NCBI GenBank assembly: GCA_021812905.1
Contig: JAKAMM010000014.1
Coordinates: forward strand, 1 to 14,626
Source of the DNA: Chloroflexota bacterium
GTDB lineage: Bacteria > Chloroflexota > Anaerolineae > Anaerolineales > Villigracilaceae
DNA: 14,626 bases
Reading direction: 5' to 3'
Shown here: piece after piece, positions 3,875-9,727 of the stretch
Layout of the letters: the number at the start of each line of letters is the position of its first letter
Position numbering within the stretch: the first letter of the stretch is position 1
Position numbers and translations under genes: made by a program
Notes under the pieces: generated by a model
Seen by the model: only the letters and a program-made list of their open reading frames with translations
Database searches by the model: none
Told to the model about the DNA's origin: nothing

Positions 3875-4567
3875 TCATGGATGCGCCCATTGTTCCAGCG
3901 CGGATGGGTCTGCGATATGAATGCAATGGTCTTCCATGCGGATCGCTCCACCGCGTTCCAATTCCCTGAGCGAGCGCGCCACCACCTCACGCACGGTCCC
4001 AAGCCGCGCCGCCAGTTGCTCTTGCGTCCAACGCGGAACAGGGCGGCCCTGTGAATCATTCTGTGGCAATTCGCTGATCAAGCGCGCCAGGCGGTGAGTG
4101 ACCTGGTAAAATGCCATCTCACTGACCTGGTGAACCATGTTACGCAACATTTTTCCAAAATTGACCAGTATTTTTTGAGCAAACTGGGGATGAGCCAACA
4201 CCAGCCGACGCAAGAATTCGGCTTCAATTACCCACACGCGGCAAGCCTCCAACGCCTCCACATTGACCGGATTCGTTCCGCCGTCAAAGGCCGGCACTTC
4301 GGCAAACGTGTCGCCTTCTTGCAGTACACGCACAATATACTGGCGGCCCTGCGGAGAAAGGCGATAAATTTTCGCGCTCCCCTGCTCGATGATGTGCAGT
4401 CCATGACACGGATCGCCTTCCCAGAAGAAAGCTTCGCCACGCTGGTACTCGCGCAACTGCGTATGCGCGGCGATTTCTTTCAACAGGTCTTCGGGCAAAT
4501 CGTTGAAATATTCGTTGCCGTGCAGCGTCTTGATTTTCAACGAAAGGGCGGCTTCAATCTGTCTCAT
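3875..4567 (-). CDS. Crp/Fnr-family transcriptional regulator
   Basis: A cyclic-nucleotide-binding-like beta-roll (about residues 20-115: 'YQRGEAFFWEGDP', 'LHIIEQGSAKIYRLSPQGRQYIVRVLQEGDTFAE'), a dimerisation helix (about 118-165) and a C-terminal winged HTH ('RWTQEQLAARLGTVREVVARSL', about 180-201). The recognition helix carries R193-E194-x3-R198, matching R180/E181/R185 of E. coli CRP. The cAMP-contacting Arg-Ser pair of CRP is absent at 'DGGTNPVNVEAL', and there is no N-terminal Fe-S cysteine cluster as in FNR. The ligand is therefore probably not cAMP; a DNR-like heme/NO or other redox signal is possible (inference). The start is uncertain: ATG 4567 (chosen, 230 aa), ATG 4576 or TTG 4615. 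It faces away from the operon at 4831 and is its likely regulator. Confidence 0.85.
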   Translation of the reverse strand: MRQIEAALSLKIKTLHGNEYFNDLPEDLLKEIAAHTQLREYQRGEAFFWEGDPCHGLHIIEQGSAKIYRLSPQGRQYIVRVLQEGDTFAEVPAFDGGTNPVNVEALEACRVWVIEAEFLRRLVLAHPQFAQKILVNFGKMLRNMVHQVSEMAFYQVTHRLARLISELPQNDSQGRPVPRWTQEQLAARLGTVREVVARSLRELERGGAIRMEDHCIHIADPSALEQWAHP

Positions 4568-4574
4568 AAACAAC

Positions 4575-4580
4575 ATTATA
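4575..4580 (-). promoter_or_regulatory. Possible -10 box of the Crp/Fnr-type regulator gene
   Basis: A perfect TATAAT on the minus strand ends 8 nt before the ATG at 4567 and overlaps the alternative ATG at 4576. If used, the transcript would be leaderless from about 4567/4568. No -35 was recognised at the expected spacing. Confidence 0.3.
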
Positions 4581-4736
4581 TCCCACTCACATTTTGATCC
4601 TGCCCTGGTATGCAACCATTCTCAATATGAATCATGTCGTTGCGAAACGGCGCTCTCGAACGTAGTAAGACGTCATCTTTGCTCCAACGGGACCCGGCAC
4701 GAGGTCCAGATGGATGCGGCTTTTTATCACAAGAAG

Positions 4737-4752
4737 TGTGACTTTAGTTACA
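4737..4752 (+). promoter_or_regulatory. CRP/FNR-type operator for the five-gene operon
   Basis: TGTGA-CTTTAG-TTACA, a 16-bp inverted repeat with one mismatch from the TGTGA-N6-TCACA consensus of CRP. Its centre (4744.5) lies about 40.5 bp upstream of the start predicted from the TATAAT at 4773-4778, the class II activator position. A further TCACA at 4727-4731 makes an outward-facing pair with the same TGTGA. The adjacent regulator has the residues that read TGTGA. Confidence 0.6.
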
Positions 4753-4772
4753 GTCTTTATGTACGCTTGTAC

Positions 4773-4778
4773 TATAAT
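4773..4778 (+). promoter_or_regulatory. -10 box of the operon promoter
   Basis: A perfect TATAAT, with a predicted start near 4785 and a leader of about 45 nt to the ATG at 4831, which has an AAAGGAG ribosome-binding site. No TTGACA-like -35 exists at 17 nt; that place is taken by the end of the CRP-type operator, as expected for an activator-dependent promoter. Confidence 0.55.
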
Positions 4779-4830
4779 TCACATTATACGCAGTATAAAT
4801 CTGTGTTCCAAATTCTGAAAGGAGAATGCC

Positions 4831-5430
4831 ATGAAAGACACTATCTTCCTTCTACTCACCGGCCTGCTGGCCGCGTACCTGTGCTGGGTTTTCTACCAGC
4901 GCTACACCCAAAGCAAGGCGCTGCCTAACCTGTATTATCTGATGGGTTTTGCAGTGCTTTTGGTTTCGGGGCTGTTGCTGATTTTCCTCGGCCTGGGAAT
5001 TTTGGCTTCGCCCTACGTGCTGACCGTCGCCAGCCTGATCCCGCTCGGCATTTCCATGGGACTTGCTGAAGAGTATTTCCCCGCCTGGAAGAAGTATTTC
5101 AAGTGGTTCGCGATGATCGGCTTCCTGGCGATTGCTGTGACCAGCATCGGCGGCATGGACACACTCAAGAAGGTCGCCGTTCCGCTCTTCCACGGCGTGG
5201 CGGGACTCGTGATCTTCCTCGGCCCATTCTTTGCCAAGGGCGCTCCGAAGGGTTTCTGGTGGGTCGGCATCGGCGGCGTTTTGATCGGCCTAGGCGGCAT
5301 CGCGCTGGCGTTCATCTCGGTCGGCGCGCAGTTGCTGTTCTTCAGCCCTGAGTTCGTCATGCTGATTTTGACTCCTCTGCTCTTCCTGATGTCTGGCGCG
5401 TTCGCGTTGGGCTTCACGAAGAAGGGTTAG
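4831..5430 (+). CDS. Polytopic membrane protein of unknown function (paralog A)
   Basis: 199 aa with about six hydrophobic helices (roughly 4-22, 35-57, 60-77, 90-106, 116-134, 143-165, with a further one at 174-194). I do not recognise a named family. It is clearly paralogous to the product of 9037-9642: both start 'LLLTGLLAAY' / 'LLVTGLLAAY', share 'GxLLVxGLLLIxLG' and 'IPLxxSxGL', an acidic residue at E80-E82 after that helix, 'FLAVT'-like text, and a conserved 'HGVAG' with H121. It is the first gene of the operon, with an AAAGGAG ribosome-binding site. The conserved intramembrane His and Glu could bind heme or metal or carry protons, but this is speculation. It may be an accessory subunit of the oxidase-like protein encoded next. 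Confidence 0.7.
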   Translation: MKDTIFLLLTGLLAAYLCWVFYQRYTQSKALPNLYYLMGFAVLLVSGLLLIFLGLGILASPYVLTVASLIPLGISMGLAEEYFPAWKKYFKWFAMIGFLAIAVTSIGGMDTLKKVAVPLFHGVAGLVIFLGPFFAKGAPKGFWWVGIGGVLIGLGGIALAFISVGAQLLFFSPEFVMLILTPLLFLMSGAFALGFTKKG

Positions 5431-5461
5431 TATTTTCACCATTGAGGCACCAAGATTTTTG

Positions 5462-5531
5462 AACCGCGAAGCACGCTAAGGTCGCAAAGAAAACCTTTTT
5501 AATCTTCGCGTTCTTTGCGGTCTTCGCGGTT
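5462..5531. repeat. Palindromic repeat of the AACCGCGAAG type
   Basis: Outer arms AACCGCGAAG (5462-5471) and CTTCGCGGTT (5522-5531) pair perfectly over 10 bp; inner arms GCAAAGAA (5484-5491) and TTCTTTGC (5511-5518) pair over 8 bp. The element lies between the first and second operon genes, so a large hairpin would form in the polycistronic mRNA. Repeats built from CGCGAAG units are common intergenic elements. Confidence 0.6.
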
Positions 5532-5595
5532 AATTTTTCTGTGTCTCATGCACTCGAAAACCTGTAATCATTTTTTGTTTTTTGGAGGCATCCAA

Positions 5596-7071
5596 ATGCA
5601 ATTCGTCAAAGACAGATTTAACTACCTCTTCGGCTCGACCAAGGGACTGATCCTGGTGGCGATTGCCATGATCGGCATCGTCACTGCCATCTGGGGCATG
5701 TTGTCGGGTCCCATGGCTGAGATGGGCGTGCGCGAGATCGTGATCAAACTCCTGCGCATGGATATCGTCCAAGCCGAACGCGAAGGACGCATCATCATCC
5801 TGTATCACTCGATTGCCATGGCCGTCATCGCCATCGAGACCTACATGATCACGAGCCTGTTGAAGATGAGAGCCTTCTTCAAGACGGCTATCAATGCCGC
5901 CATCACGGTCGGCTACATGCTGACAATGATCTTCGGCATGGGTTTTGCCTACTTCGGCCACAACTGGGCATTCCACGGGCTTTACATCGTCGGCCTGTCG
6001 TTGATCTTCTTCGCGGGCGTGATGCTCATCATTGCCCTCTGGCCGTGGAACCCCGAAACCTACATCACCGACAAAGACTATGCCCACACCAAAAAAGGTG
6101 TGAATATGGAACGCGTGGCCTTCTTCGCCACCGCCGTCACCACGGTCATTTCTGCGTTCTTCGGCGCCATCCCAGGTTCGTATTATGGTCACGGCTTCGA
6201 GACCTTCCTCGCCGAGAACATCATCCGCTACCCCGAAAAGACTACGATGGAATACTCCATCATCGGCCACCTGCACATCATGCTGGCGCTGATTGCCATC
6301 ATGATCACGCTCATCATTGGCCGCTGGTTTAATTTCAAAGGCATTTTGCACAAGTTTGCCATGCCGCTGATGATCCTCGGCACCATTGTGCTCAACCTCG
6401 GTGTGTGGGGCGTAGTCACTCCGCTTGAACCTGTGGCGCACATGATTATCTACGTCGGCGCGACGCCGTCCATGTTTGCGGCGCTGCTCCTGCTCATCTG
6501 GAGTTGGGGCAAACTTATCCGCGAAGGCACAGCCCACATCCAAAAGCCCAACTTCGGACAGAAGATCGGCGCGCTCCTGCGCGACCCGCTCAAGTTTGGC
6601 CCCACCTGGCAGATGCTGTTCATGAACTTCACCACCAGCGGAATCGGCATCTTCATGGCGATCCGCCTTGAACAAATCTTCCGCGTGTGGCCTGCCCGTG
6701 AGGAGCGCATTGAATTGACAGGACACTGGCACGCGCTTTCGGCCATCATCGCCACCATCATCCTGTTCTACTACGGCGACATGATCGGCCTCAAAGGCAA
6801 GATCCGCCAGGTATACGGCTGGGGCATCCTCATCCTTTCAGACATCGCCCTGGCCGCCGTCACGGTCTTCGAGATGAAACGCCTCTTCATCACCGAAGCC
6901 GTCCAACAGCCGCTGGTCAATGGACTCATGTACGCCATAGACTTCGGCCTCGGCATGTTGCTGGTCATCCTTGCTGCGTTGCTGGTGTATCGCTTGACAG
7001 ATCTATTCAAAAACAAAGGACGCTGGATCGAAGAACTTGACCACGAACTCGCGCAAGAGGTGGACAAATGA
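5596..7071 (+). CDS. Heme-copper oxidase/NOR subunit I-like 12-helix protein
   Basis: 491 aa from the ATG at 5596, chosen for the GGAGG ribosome-binding site 7 nt upstream. Twelve hydrophobic helices fit subunit I of heme-copper oxidases and nitric oxide reductases. Histidines sit in TM2 ('LYHSIAMA', H71), TM6 ('GHLHIML', H225/H227) and TM10 ('GHWHALS', H377/H379), spaced about 152-154 residues apart as the threefold pseudo-symmetry of the family predicts. 'TPLEPVAHM' (TM8) resembles the 'SxLEP/V' segment of NorB. TM7, where the family has two adjacent His that bind CuB/FeB, reads 'LGTIVLNLGVWG' and has none. So low- and high-spin heme binding is plausible but a normal binuclear centre is not. 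No periplasmic cytochrome c subunit gene is adjacent. The stop overlaps the next ATG (ATGA). Superfamily call moderately sure; activity unknown. Confidence 0.65.
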   Translation: MQFVKDRFNYLFGSTKGLILVAIAMIGIVTAIWGMLSGPMAEMGVREIVIKLLRMDIVQAEREGRIIILYHSIAMAVIAIETYMITSLLKMRAFFKTAINAAITVGYMLTMIFGMGFAYFGHNWAFHGLYIVGLSLIFFAGVMLIIALWPWNPETYITDKDYAHTKKGVNMERVAFFATAVTTVISAFFGAIPGSYYGHGFETFLAENIIRYPEKTTMEYSIIGHLHIMLALIAIMITLIIGRWFNFKGILHKFAMPLMILGTIVLNLGVWGVVTPLEPVAHMIIYVGATPSMFAALLLLIWSWGKLIREGTAHIQKPNFGQKIGALLRDPLKFGPTWQMLFMNFTTSGIGIFMAIRLEQIFRVWPAREERIELTGHWHALSAIIATIILFYYGDMIGLKGKIRQVYGWGILILSDIALAAVTVFEMKRLFITEAVQQPLVNGLMYAIDFGLGMLLVILAALLVYRLTDLFKNKGRWIEELDHELAQEVDK

Positions 7072-8102
7072 AACGCCTCATCAATATTATGTCATTGCGA
7101 GCGTTCTTCCCTGGCACCGCCCGCCAGGGCAGGTGTGCGAAGCAATCCCCTGTTACTCAAGGAGACTGCTTCGTTCCTCGCAGTGACACTACGAAGAGGA
7201 GATTGCTTCGGGCTGTCGCCCTCGCGATGACATTCATTTTACTGGCCTCGTGCGCCCCTGTAAATTTGAACGCTCCGATCCCCACCTTCGACACGGGCGT
7301 GGACCCGAACGCGTGGACGCAAATCCCTGCGGGTGAATTCCATTTCGGCCAGCAGGATGACATCAAAACCACCGATGCCTACGAGATCATGATCACGGAT
7401 GTCACCGTCAGCCAGTACACAGCCTTTTTGACGGCGGCCCTGTCCAACGGTCAGGTAAAGATCGGCGAGTTCAAAGGTCAAAAAGCCATCGTTGGTTACT
7501 ATCCTGGAGATGTCTTTCACGGCGTGAAGCACGAAGAAGAGATCAAAGCGGGCGATTGGATATTCATCCCGTTGGACGATCCCGCCTCGCGCTTCACCTT
7601 TGACGGCACAACCTTCACTCCTATGCCTGGCTACGAAAACCACCCGATGGCGATGGTCACCTGGTTCGGCGCGTGGGCTTACTGCGGCTCCGTGAATGGA
7701 CGCCTGCCCACCGAAATGGAATGGGAAAAAGCCGCGCGCGGCACAGACAAGCGTCCCTTCCCGTGGGGCGATGATATTGCTCGTAACAACGCCAACTTCT
7801 ACGCATCGCGCGACCCGTTTGAAAACATGAGTTCCTTCGGCTCGCGCACAAGTCCAGTCGGCTTCTACAACGGACAGAAATACGGCGACTACCAGACACT
7901 CAACTCTGCTTCGCCCTACGGCCTCTACGACATGGCAGGCAACGTCTGGCAATGGACGGGTAACGTCTACGAAGGCATGCACTACCGCTTCATGCGCGGC
8001 GGCTCAAAAGACACCTACGACATGGACTTGCGCGTGTGGGTTCGCAACAACGCCACGCCCACTTACTTCAGCCCAGGCGTTGGGTTCAGGTGTGTAAGGT
8101 AA
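7068..8102 (+). CDS. FGE-sulfatase-fold lipoprotein (NirV-like), catalytic cysteines absent
   Basis: After a signal peptide with lipobox 'LLASC' (C62) comes a formylglycine-generating-enzyme/SUMF1-type domain: 'WTQIPAGEFHFG', 'DVTVSQYTAFL', 'HPMAMVTWFGAWAYC', 'RLPTEMEWEKAARG', 'FPWGDD', 'GLYDMAGNVWQWTGNVYEG', 'FMRGGS', ending 'GVGFRCVR'. In true FGEs the stretch after RGGS holds two copper-binding cysteines; here it reads 'KDTYDMDLRVWVRNN' with none, so oxidase activity is unlikely. Similar domains occur near nitrite/NO-reduction genes (NirV), which suits the oxidase-like neighbour. The start at 7068 is supported by the ATGA overlap with the previous gene and by GAGGTGG upstream. Residues 9-54 are encoded by a palindromic repeat inserted in the signal-peptide region. 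TTG at 7203 is an alternative start. Confidence 0.75.
   Translation: MKRLINIMSLRAFFPGTARQGRCAKQSPVTQGDCFVPRSDTTKRRLLRAVALAMTFILLASCAPVNLNAPIPTFDTGVDPNAWTQIPAGEFHFGQQDDIKTTDAYEIMITDVTVSQYTAFLTAALSNGQVKIGEFKGQKAIVGYYPGDVFHGVKHEEEIKAGDWIFIPLDDPASRFTFDGTTFTPMPGYENHPMAMVTWFGAWAYCGSVNGRLPTEMEWEKAARGTDKRPFPWGDDIARNNANFYASRDPFENMSSFGSRTSPVGFYNGQKYGDYQTLNSASPYGLYDMAGNVWQWTGNVYEGMHYRFMRGGSKDTYDMDLRVWVRNNATPTYFSPGVGFRCVR
7090..7232. repeat. Dispersed palindromic repeat, TGTCATTGCG family, copy 2, inside a coding region
   Basis: It begins TGTCATTGCGAGCG and ends CTCGCGATGACA, with shared internal blocks GTGTGCGAAGCA and GAGAT-GCTTCG seen in the copy at 1076-1181. The right half contains two successive end-like units (GGAGACTGCTTCG...CAGTGACA and GGAGATTGCTTCG...GATGACA), so it may be a composite of two copies. 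It lies wholly within the 5' coding part of the FGE-like lipoprotein gene and keeps its frame open. Confidence 0.75.
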
Positions 8103-8111
8103 AATAGAAAG

Positions 8112-8157
8112 CAGAGAGCAGTGAATACTAAACCAATCTCTAATCATCTACTCTCTG
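8112..8157. repeat. Short inverted repeat between the FGE-like gene and ctaB
   Basis: CAGAGAG (8112-8118) and CTCTCTG (8151-8157) are perfect 7-bp arms around a 32-nt loop in the 71-nt gap before ctaB. No T-run follows, so it does not look like a terminator. It could influence mRNA processing between cistrons, or be chance. Confidence 0.25.
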
Positions 8158-8173
8158 GTTTTAGGAGTATGAG

Positions 8174-9034
8174 ATGAAAATCTTCATCGCCAAATTCCGC
8201 CTCTACTGGCCGCTCATCAAATCATCACAGACCAGCTTACTCTTACTGACAGGCGTCGCTGGTTTCCTCAGCGCAGGCACGCACATTGGATTGCTGACCT
8301 TGCTGGGCCTATCCGGCAGTCTCTTCCTCGCCATCAGCGGCTCGACCATCCTGAACATGTGGTACGACCACGACATTGACGCGAAGATGAAGCGCACGCA
8401 CAAACGTCCCGCCGCCTCGGGTCAGTTGAGCCGCACCGAAGTCTTCTGGGTCGGCATGATCGTCTCTTTGCTCGGCGTGGGCGGCGCGCTGGTGATTGCT
8501 CCACTGTACGGCCTGGTCGTGTTCGCAGGCTGGTTCTTCGATGTGATTGTGTACACTCTCTGGCTCAAACGCCACACCGCCTGGAGCATCGTATGGGGCG
8601 GCATCTCAGGCGCCATGCCGATTCTTTCTGGGCGCGTACTCGCGACGGGACACATTGACCTGGTTGGCATCCTGCTTGCGCTCGCCATTCTCTTCTGGAT
8701 CCCGACTCACACGCTGACCTTCTCCATCAAATTCCGCGAAGACTATGCCAAGGCGGGCGTGCCAACCTTCCCCTCGACCTATGGCGACACCTTCACCCGC
8801 GCGGCGATTGCGATCTCGTCCGTACTGGCAGCGATCTCCATCGGCTGGGCCAGCGTGGATATCGGCATCAGCGCGGGCTACTTGCGTCTCATCGCCGTGC
8901 TCACGGCGGGACTACTCCTGCTGGCCTTCGCCACCTTCCGAGTTCAATCCGAGCGCGTCAACTTTGGCTTGTTCAAGTACGCCTCGCTCTACATGCTGTC
9001 GGCGATGATCATCCTCGCCATGAAAGCATTCTAA
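8174..9034 (+). CDS. ctaB: Protoheme IX farnesyltransferase (heme O synthase), UbiA family
   Basis: Transfers a farnesyl group to heme B, making heme O for heme-copper oxidases; an integral membrane enzyme. The family's first Asp-rich motif is intact: 'NMWYDHDIDAKMKRTHKRP' (NxxxDxxxDxxMxRTxxRP, about residues 57-75). Next come 'YTLWLKRHTAWSIVWGGISGAMPILSG', typical of CtaB rather than other UbiA members, and the second motif region 'IPTHTLTFSIKFREDYAKAGVPTFP' in place of the usual 'PHF...DY..AGxPMLP'. About nine helices; 286 aa is a normal length. AGGAG lies 7 nt before the ATG. Its position downstream of the oxidase-like gene suggests it supplies heme O to that protein. The PTH instead of PHF in the second motif is a modest divergence. 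Confidence 0.88.
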   Translation: MKIFIAKFRLYWPLIKSSQTSLLLLTGVAGFLSAGTHIGLLTLLGLSGSLFLAISGSTILNMWYDHDIDAKMKRTHKRPAASGQLSRTEVFWVGMIVSLLGVGGALVIAPLYGLVVFAGWFFDVIVYTLWLKRHTAWSIVWGGISGAMPILSGRVLATGHIDLVGILLALAILFWIPTHTLTFSIKFREDYAKAGVPTFPSTYGDTFTRAAIAISSVLAAISIGWASVDIGISAGYLRLIAVLTAGLLLLAFATFRVQSERVNFGLFKYASLYMLSAMIILAMKAF

Positions 9035-9036
9035 CC

Positions 9037-9642
9037 ATGAAAATGACCATGCTCGACCGCATCCTTTTGCTCGTTACTGGCCTGCTTGCTGCGTATCAAA
9101 TTGTCATCGGCATAGACAAGCTCTCCACCACGCCAATCATCGCCTACACCATCGCCTTTGGCGTTCTGCTCGTGGCAGGACTCCTGCTCATCATCCTCGG
9201 CTTTGAAGTTCTGGATAGTCCCATCGTGGTTATCGTTTCGACGATCATTCCGTTGTCACTTTCGCTGGGACTCGTCTGGGAACACTCCGCCTCTTTTCGG
9301 ACCCCGTACCTGGTCTTTGCCATTTTGGGTTTCCTGGCTGTGACTCTGACCCGCTCAATCCCCACCCCGGGCAAAATCCCCACCATCGTGCTGGCCCTCG
9401 TCCACGGCGTGGCAGGCATAACCATCTTTCTGTTGCCCATCATCATCTCCATGCAGGGACGGATGAAACCGGCATTTACCCTCGTAGGCCTCGGCGGCGC
9501 GTTGATCGGTATCGGCGGTCTTCTACTCGCGTTCCTGAAAGCAGGCAAGCCCATCCTATCGAGAGAAACCATCTTCAAAGTTCTGCCAGGGCTACTCCTG
9601 CTGATGACAATCTGTTTCGTGGCCGGATTCAAGTTTGGATAA
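9037..9642 (+). CDS. Polytopic membrane protein of unknown function (paralog B)
   Basis: 201 aa, about six to seven hydrophobic helices, paralogous along its whole length to the first operon gene (4831-5430). Shared features are 'LLxTGLLAAY', 'FGVLLVAGLLLIILG', 'IIPLSLSLGL', an acidic residue at E82 followed by His, 'LGFLAVT', the conserved 'HGVAG' with H123, and a glycine-rich helix 'VGLGGALIGIGGLLLAF'. It starts 2 nt after the ctaB stop, so it is probably translated by coupling; ATGs at 9037, 9043 and 9049 are all possible starts and none has a strong ribosome-binding site. It is the last gene before a strong terminator. Function not recognised. Confidence 0.7.
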   Translation: MKMTMLDRILLLVTGLLAAYQIVIGIDKLSTTPIIAYTIAFGVLLVAGLLLIILGFEVLDSPIVVIVSTIIPLSLSLGLVWEHSASFRTPYLVFAILGFLAVTLTRSIPTPGKIPTIVLALVHGVAGITIFLLPIIISMQGRMKPAFTLVGLGGALIGIGGLLLAFLKAGKPILSRETIFKVLPGLLLLMTICFVAGFKFG

Positions 9643-9693: not shown

Positions 9694-9727
9694 AAAATCG
9701 GATGCACTTTGAAGCGCATCCGATTTT
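9694..9727. terminator. Bidirectional Rho-independent terminator
   Basis: AAAATCGGATGC (9694-9705) pairs perfectly with GCATCCGATTTT (9716-9727): a 12-bp stem with a 10-nt loop. The plus strand continues TTTTATTATTT and the minus strand ends in a T-run as well. It sits between the convergent operon (ends 9642) and cupin gene (ends 9729), so it can stop transcription from both sides. Confidence 0.85.

Follow-up and report, generated by a model that had tools for sequence, protein, structure and literature searches.

The stretch of DNA considered here, a window of 14,626 nucleotides (nt) from a Chloroflexota bacterium (GenBank assembly GCA_021812905.1, contig JAKAMM010000014.1), contains an operon of five genes. 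These encode two paralogous membrane proteins (A and A'), an oxidase-like membrane protein (Ox), a lipoprotein related to formylglycine-generating enzymes (FGE-like), and the heme O synthase CtaB. A sequence-only reading of the window had proposed this five-gene module, and all five open reading frames are confirmed on the forward strand between positions 4831 and 9642 (Table 1). The gene order, which that reading called tight, is so at two junctions, namely an ATGA overlap (7068-7071) and a gap of 2 nt (9035-9036); A and Ox are separated by 165 nt, and the FGE-like gene and ctaB by 71 nt. The start of Ox is set to the ATG at position 5596 instead of the mechanically called TTG at 5515, as supported by the family alignment. 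The strong terminator proposed at the end of the operon is an inverted repeat of 16 base pairs (bp), 94% complementary, at 9694-9727. By its relatives the window is Anaerolineales-like, and a plasmid search yielded no match. The observation of the operon stands and is stronger than first stated. The earlier interpretation is supported in part: the oxidase-like subunit, the dedicated-looking CtaB, the paralogs, and the promoter are retained, and the role of A and A' keeps its candidate status.

Table 1. Genes and sequence features of the Ox operon and its promoter region.
Feature	Position	Strand	Description
A	4831-5430	+	199-aa (amino acid) membrane protein, one conserved His (H121); without Pfam family
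Ox (oxidase-like)	5596-7071	+	491 aa, 12 predicted long helices, predicted heme-copper subunit I fold
FGE-like lipoprotein	7068-8102	+	PF03781 1.5e-36; lipobox Cys62; without FGE catalytic Cys pair
CtaB/CyoE heme O synthase	8174-9034	+	TIGR01473 223.6 bits, cut-off 210.3
A'	9037-9642	+	201-aa paralog of A
CRP/FNR-family regulator	3875-4615	-	divergent from operon; cNMP_binding 4.3e-23, HTH_Crp_2 1e-13
Dyad TGTGAC-N4-GTTACA	4737-4752	+	putative CRP/HcpR-type activator site; 9/10 matches to TGTGA-N6-TCACA
Second, weaker dyad TGTACTATAATTCACA	4768-4783	+	spans TATAAT -10 (4773-4778)
Imperfect hairpin, 29-nt, A/Ox gap	5462-5531	.	possible attenuator or dispersed repeat
Hairpin	9694-9727	.	probable bidirectional terminator between A' and a convergent cupin-like gene

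Conservation and composition of the operon

Among 7998 candidates scored, at least 3240 are related to Ox at E <= 0.001. Gene neighbourhoods were analysed in the best 80 of 110 confirmed relatives from one genome-contig scan (loci L001-L080), most of which are recorded as Anaerolineae or Chloroflexi, with a few recorded as Chlorobi, Bacteroidales, Draconibacterium, or Spirochaetaceae. Among loci with sufficient flank, the FGE-like gene follows Ox in 75 of 75 and CtaB does so in 71 of 73. The upstream side of the core holds an A-type gene in 45 of 75 loci and the downstream side in 53 of 71, and the full five-gene order is kept in 33 of the 67 loci with complete flanks. Ox, FGE-like, and CtaB form the core of the operon, and on one side of it the A gene is frequently missing. 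The neighbourhood is therefore not a peculiarity of the source genome. The genes are also phylogenetically linked: the pairwise distance matrices of Ox, FGE-like, and CtaB correlate across 55 loci (r = 0.83, 0.69, and 0.74), with 0 of 999 permutations as high, which shows co-inheritance, not interaction. Two membrane protein families without a Pfam match are frequent further neighbours within the available flanks (43 and 46 of 80 loci).

In the class sample of G206 the wider family occurs in 64 of 396 genomes, comprising 44 with a full or nearly full Ox, 14 with a sister family, and 6 partial cases; in the phylum sample it occurs in 17 of 400 genomes, including two of the sister type and one partial. 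The class sample around G027 comprised a single genome. Genome G640 carries two copies of the Ox-FGE-CtaB core (L193 and L195), one of them with the nitrite reductase NirS. Upstream of Ox in L027 (3146-3961) lie tandem open reading frames of 138 and 132 aa, the first of which has a sub-cut-off resemblance to COX1 that is confined to positions 3-140; similar short matches occur in many of the genomes surveyed. As in the sequence-only reading, no named system with this composition was found, and no paper describing the operon family was recognised by title or abstract opening among the matches listed, subscription papers lying largely outside the search.

A and A' are indeed paralogs (42% identity, 5e-44), and the His121 of their shared HGVAG motif is kept in at least 95% of 74 A/A' sequences. 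The lipobox Cys62 of the FGE-like protein is likewise kept in at least 95% of 72 homologs. Its best PDB match is SUMF2 (3.6e-18) and its best NCBIfam match is GldK, far below the cut-off of that family. When aligned with 6muj_A, the protein has no Cys at the positions of the catalytic pair, and we reject it as a working formylglycine-generating enzyme for this reason. It shares PF03781 with GldK/PorK, SUMF2, and the NirV-type FGE-sulfatase proteins (NirV itself presumably carrying the same domain), and differs from them as a lipoprotein that partners an oxidase-like protein and is devoid of the Cys pair. NirV accompanies NirK in some denitrifiers, according to the available part of PMC4770552.

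Within the FGE-like gene, the stretch encoding the signal peptide (7089-7233) contains an in-frame palindromic repeat of the MSLRG..DCFVA.LLAMT type, which seems to form part of the hydrophobic core of the signal peptide. By eye, similar N-termini are present in about a dozen of the 72 homologs, and a second type is found in L006, L019, L021, and L030.

Predicted fold and metal site of Ox

The relation of Ox to the heme-copper superfamily was recovered by fold comparison alone, all sequence routes having failed. The predicted structure consists of 12 long helices, the number looked for in the subunit I fold, and is in line with the divergent oxidase-like subunit proposed before. Several results count against this assignment: Ox has no match to PF00115 (COX1) up to E 0.1 and no PDB profile match, hhalign comparisons with two heme-copper alignments are not significant (E 0.079 and 0.37), the Foldseek E-value is never below 0.001, and the CuB pair is reduced to a single His, the corresponding positions reading A281-H282. 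The NCBIfam search likewise gave no link to the superfamily.

The metal site nevertheless has recognisable counterparts. Over 50 sequences, including the sister family, H71, H127, H225, H227, M229, H282, H377, and H379 are invariant; the seven His among them, including both putative heme sets, remain so down to 34% identity. By the predicted helix limits, each of the seven lies within the first half of its helix (2, 4, 6, 8, or 10). In a heme-copper reference of 13 sequences (CcoN numbering of L121), H59, H256, H257, H344, and H346 are invariant and H206 is nearly so. The intervals from transmembrane helix 2 (TM2) to TM6, from TM6 to the His pair, and from the pair to TM10 are 154, 57, and 95 residues in Ox and 147, 50, and 88 in the reference. 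Of the six reference His (TM2, TM6, the His-His pair, and the His-x-His of TM10), five thus have counterparts in Ox, which adds two invariant His of its own (H127 and H227). Because neither the full set of six His nor a PF00115 match was found, we do not class Ox as a heme-copper oxidase, though it may still function like one. We are confident that the predicted fold is of the heme-copper type, and very likely the Ox family represents such a fold, with an altered metal site, that the COX1 profile overlooks.

The residue four positions after the TM6 His distinguishes the known classes, and in Ox it is Met229 in 50 of 50 sequences if H225 is taken as the TM6 ligand. The cNOR and qNOR classes of nitric oxide (NO) reductase have Glu at this position (NorB of L197 and L199) and eNOR has Gln (L131 and L200). 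The NO reductases further differ from Ox in their complete CuB pair, and the operon contains neither a NorC-like nor a cupredoxin gene; in particular, no operon protein matches a cupredoxin family, to which subunit II of eNOR belongs. The cbb3 oxidases, which use heme b only and hence need no CtaB, differ from other O2 reductases at the +4 position. Ox is 9-10% identical to their subunit CcoN and lacks its His-His pair, and the operon is devoid of a CcoO/CcoP-like cytochrome c gene, yet has CtaB. The Tyr that O2 reductases carry four residues past the TM6 His, as given in the accessible part of PMC8756737, is replaced by Met229 with respect to the A and B types.

A different COX1-family protein of 528-529 aa is encoded in L196 (1524-3107) and L198 (1445-3031), from genomes G640 and G476. 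By eye it seems to lack several metal ligands, reading SFWIFAQTSVYM at TM6 and GVHTFTSD at the pair.

CtaB, promoter, and co-occurring genes

The CtaB of the operon scores above the membership cut-off of the CtaB/CyoE family (Table 1). To place it, we consider genomes with and without Ox: the comparison set consists of 38 carriers, 38 non-carriers drawn from the same class sample by order of genome number, and a further four carriers. These genomes are mostly drafts of unmeasured completeness, such that each absence is weak by itself and the pattern as a whole carries more weight. Ten carriers have no PF00115 protein over the cut-off, namely seven of the 38 together with G005, G007, and G015. 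In nine of the ten, a single CtaB of at least 190 bits is present and adjoins Ox; the tenth, G442, has two. The Ox-side copy falls just under the TIGR01473 cut-off in three of the ten, as it does in G442. Ox-side copies range from about 194 to 241 bits, those near A-type oxidases exceed 290, and some near other oxidases reach 230-245, so the score alone is no marker of the Ox-side group. In L023 and L053 CtaB is not beside Ox, which counts against the function proposed below; the genome of L023 (G014) has a CtaB of similar score about 155 kb away. As proposed in the sequence-only reading, the operon CtaB looks like a heme O synthase dedicated to Ox, and Ox itself is probably a heme-O dependent enzyme. 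A CtaB of 197.5 bits that adjoins the nitrite reductase NrfA was also found in L201 (5368-8066; genome G438), a genome in which no Ox was found.

The activator-type promoter is well conserved. Its 16-bp dyad TGTGACTTTAGTTACA (4737-4752) has its centre about 40 bp upstream of the start predicted by the TATAAT at 4773-4778, which was picked by eye and is unlisted in a sigma-70 scan that requires a -35 hexamer, none being recognised. Among the 45 loci with an upstream A gene and sufficient flank, 37 carry, at most 250 nt from A, a site that agrees with TGTGA-N6-TCACA at 9 or all 10 positions, compared with 0.33 expected from shuffles and a background of 28 in 2556 other 250-nt tiles. A second dyad over the -10 element, with TGTGCAATAATTCACA-like elements, occurs in many of the loci inspected. 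CRP-family genes are found within the flanks of 46 of 80 Ox loci, and the divergent regulator of the window has the recognition helix TVREVVARSLRELE, with Arg-Glu at the positions of CRP 180/181 (by eye). The Desulfovibrio HcpR site, wTGTGAnnnnnnTCACAw, is called similar to the CRP consensus in the available text of PMC1274295. Because of this resemblance, the site fits an NO-sensing regulator and other members of the CRP family alike; the likeness to the HcpR regulon consists of the site, which is equally CRP-like, and the Arg-Glu recognition helix.

Carriers of Ox are enriched in nitrite reductases. NirS, called by PF02239 at E <= 1e-20, is present in 12 of 44 carriers (12/38, then 0/6) and 7 of 98 non-carriers (2/38, then 5/60; Fisher p = 0.0024), and in none of 14 sister-family genomes. 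NrfA is present in 22 of 38 carriers, one match being fragmentary, and in 10 of 38 non-carriers (p = 0.010); 12 of the 38 carriers have neither. Linkage occurs as well. In L193 the genes for CRP, A, Ox, FGE-like, CtaB, an unknown membrane protein, and NirS lie on one strand, and in L192 (G476) NirS lies downstream of CtaB in the same orientation as Ox. The NirS gene of L194 starts about 10 kb from Ox, beyond CRP and other genes; it adjoins a 392-aa polytopic protein without a Pfam match (16574-17749), which recurs in the Ox loci L005, L012, L021, L022, and L026. In L202 (G158) a distance of about 3-4 kb, occupied by unrelated genes, separates Ox from an NrfA on the opposite strand that is preceded by a tetraheme protein. 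The Ox-linked NirS proteins have two CXXCH cytochrome segments ahead of the d1 domain and resemble the C1-C2-NirS described in PMC8756737, whose available part states that most Chloroflexi genomes carrying C1-C2-NirS are without a known NO reductase gene.

A number of observations weigh against a tie between Ox and NO. NirS is absent from 26 of the 38 carriers and from the available flanks of L001-L080, and NosZ is equally frequent in the two groups (6 of 38 each). The NirS proteins of L192 and L193 are 84% identical and thus probably related, which reduces the linkage to two or three events, and the carrier statistics ignore kinship among genomes. PF00115 proteins over the cut-off are found in 31 of 38 carriers compared with 22 of 38 non-carriers (p = 0.045), a mild enrichment for which a facultative lifestyle alone would suffice. 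Moreover, of the 13 NirS-bearing carriers (12 of the 38 and G001), seven encode an eNOR-class protein (G588, G518, G451, G078, G021, G034, and G126; defined by a PF00115 score of 212-233 bits and an open frame of 578-589 aa, and sequence-checked in G078 and G021 only), and two a sequence-checked cNOR (G476 and G640). Because such proteins are present in these nine, Ox is not required to explain their NirS, and as a general rule we reject it as the sole NO reductase of NirS carriers. The remaining four (G016, G508, G579, and G001) have one full PF00115 protein each, of at least 447 bits, which places it in another class by score alone.

Proposed function and alternatives

From the observed genes, gene order, site pattern, and co-occurrence, and from the predicted fold, we tentatively propose that the operon encodes a membrane oxidoreductase with a divergent heme-copper Ox and its own CtaB, most likely NO-reducing and under CRP/HcpR-type control. 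Beyond these, we infer the hemes, the metal, the electron donor, and the substrate, for which NO is the best single guess, itself a guarded one. Ox would be the large subunit, CtaB would make its heme O, and A, A', and the FGE-like lipoprotein would likely be accessory subunits or assembly factors. Judged by position, H71 and H379 may hold a low-spin heme and H377 a high-spin heme, probably heme O, with H225 and H282, aided by H227, M229, or H127, holding a neighbouring Cu or Fe. With neither a CuA nor a cytochrome c subunit encoded in the operon, the electron donor is probably menaquinol. NO reduction would serve detoxification or respiration. That Ox further represents an undescribed class of NO reductase, defined by heme O, a heme-copper fold, a His/His/Met-type metal site, its own CtaB, the FGE-like lipoprotein, and membrane partners, appears to us doubtful, if conceivable.

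The same fold and heme O might instead serve O2, with Ox as a micro-oxic reductase or as a scavenger protecting anaerobes, a role we consider rather unlikely. CtaB serves known O2 reductases, and the enrichment of PF00115 proteins in carriers fits this role, as does the flavodiiron protein that adjoins the sister gene in L098, flavodiiron proteins being capable of O2 or NO reduction. The invariant Met in place of Tyr speaks against it, as do the enrichment of NirS and NrfA and the fact that most carriers (31/38) have another heme-copper protein at their disposal.

Also unlikely is a non-catalytic homolog acting as a sensor, a heme or metal carrier, or an assembly factor for a canonical oxidase, NirS, or NrfA. 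Its appeal lies in the degenerate CuB ligand set, in an FGE-like partner that lacks the catalytic Cys, and in the canonical heme-copper proteins of most carriers (25 of 29 in a smaller survey, in addition to the 31 of 38). A helper of this kind is hard to reconcile with an adjoining CtaB and with seven invariant His that include the putative heme sets; furthermore, ten carriers, in draft genomes that are possibly incomplete, are without a PF00115 match over the cut-off, and 12 of the 38 lack both NirS and NrfA. Finally, turnover of another small molecule (nitrite, hydroxylamine, N2O, or a sulfur species) would accommodate the unusual His/His/Met set and the NrfA and NirS association, and is improbable, as no identified gene of the cluster suggests such a substrate and we know of no heme-copper subunit I that uses one. 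NO reduction hence remains our best single guess, tentatively held, with O2 reduction and a non-catalytic role as its main rivals.

Aerobic respiration and NO respiration are dominated by heme-copper enzymes, and the Ox family goes undetected by the standard COX1 profile. An altered CuB ligand set would show how far the heme-copper active site can vary. Chloroflexota are among the phyla with nir and nosZ genomes lacking nor, according to the accessible part of PMC12569097. If Ox reduces NO, such a hidden family would alter N2O accounting, NosZ itself not being enriched in carriers, and would close the gap seen in those Chloroflexota that have NirS and no known NO reductase. These include the cultured Thermanaerothrix daxensis GNS-1 (G001, locus L060), which carries Ox-FGE-CtaB-A with NirS and Ox on different contigs, and in which the idea is therefore testable. 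The announcement of its genome (PMC4653793) lists NirS and NrfA as well as oxidases of the A-family and bd types, without mention of an NO reductase.

The sister family is represented by 15 loci (L098, L099, and L167-L179), several on short contigs. A DUF438-hemerythrin-PAS protein is found near the sister gene in L098, L099, L168, L169, L172, and L173, and CtaB lies directly 3' of it in L176, L178, and L179. An atypical COX1 protein and a cupredoxin are nearby in L099, L169, and L171, and the COX1 protein alone in L172, at a contig end. The representative in L099 (10319-12379; PF00115 220.9 bits) has its relatives in these other three loci, three of the four having the cupredoxin-like partner, and in the alignment the TM6 CuB His seems to be missing from this type. 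In L126 (163-3645) a qNOR adjoins a protein of the DUF438-hemerythrin-PAS type, both named by eye from sequence; the genome is that of L080 (recorded as Bacteroidales), which also carries Ox.
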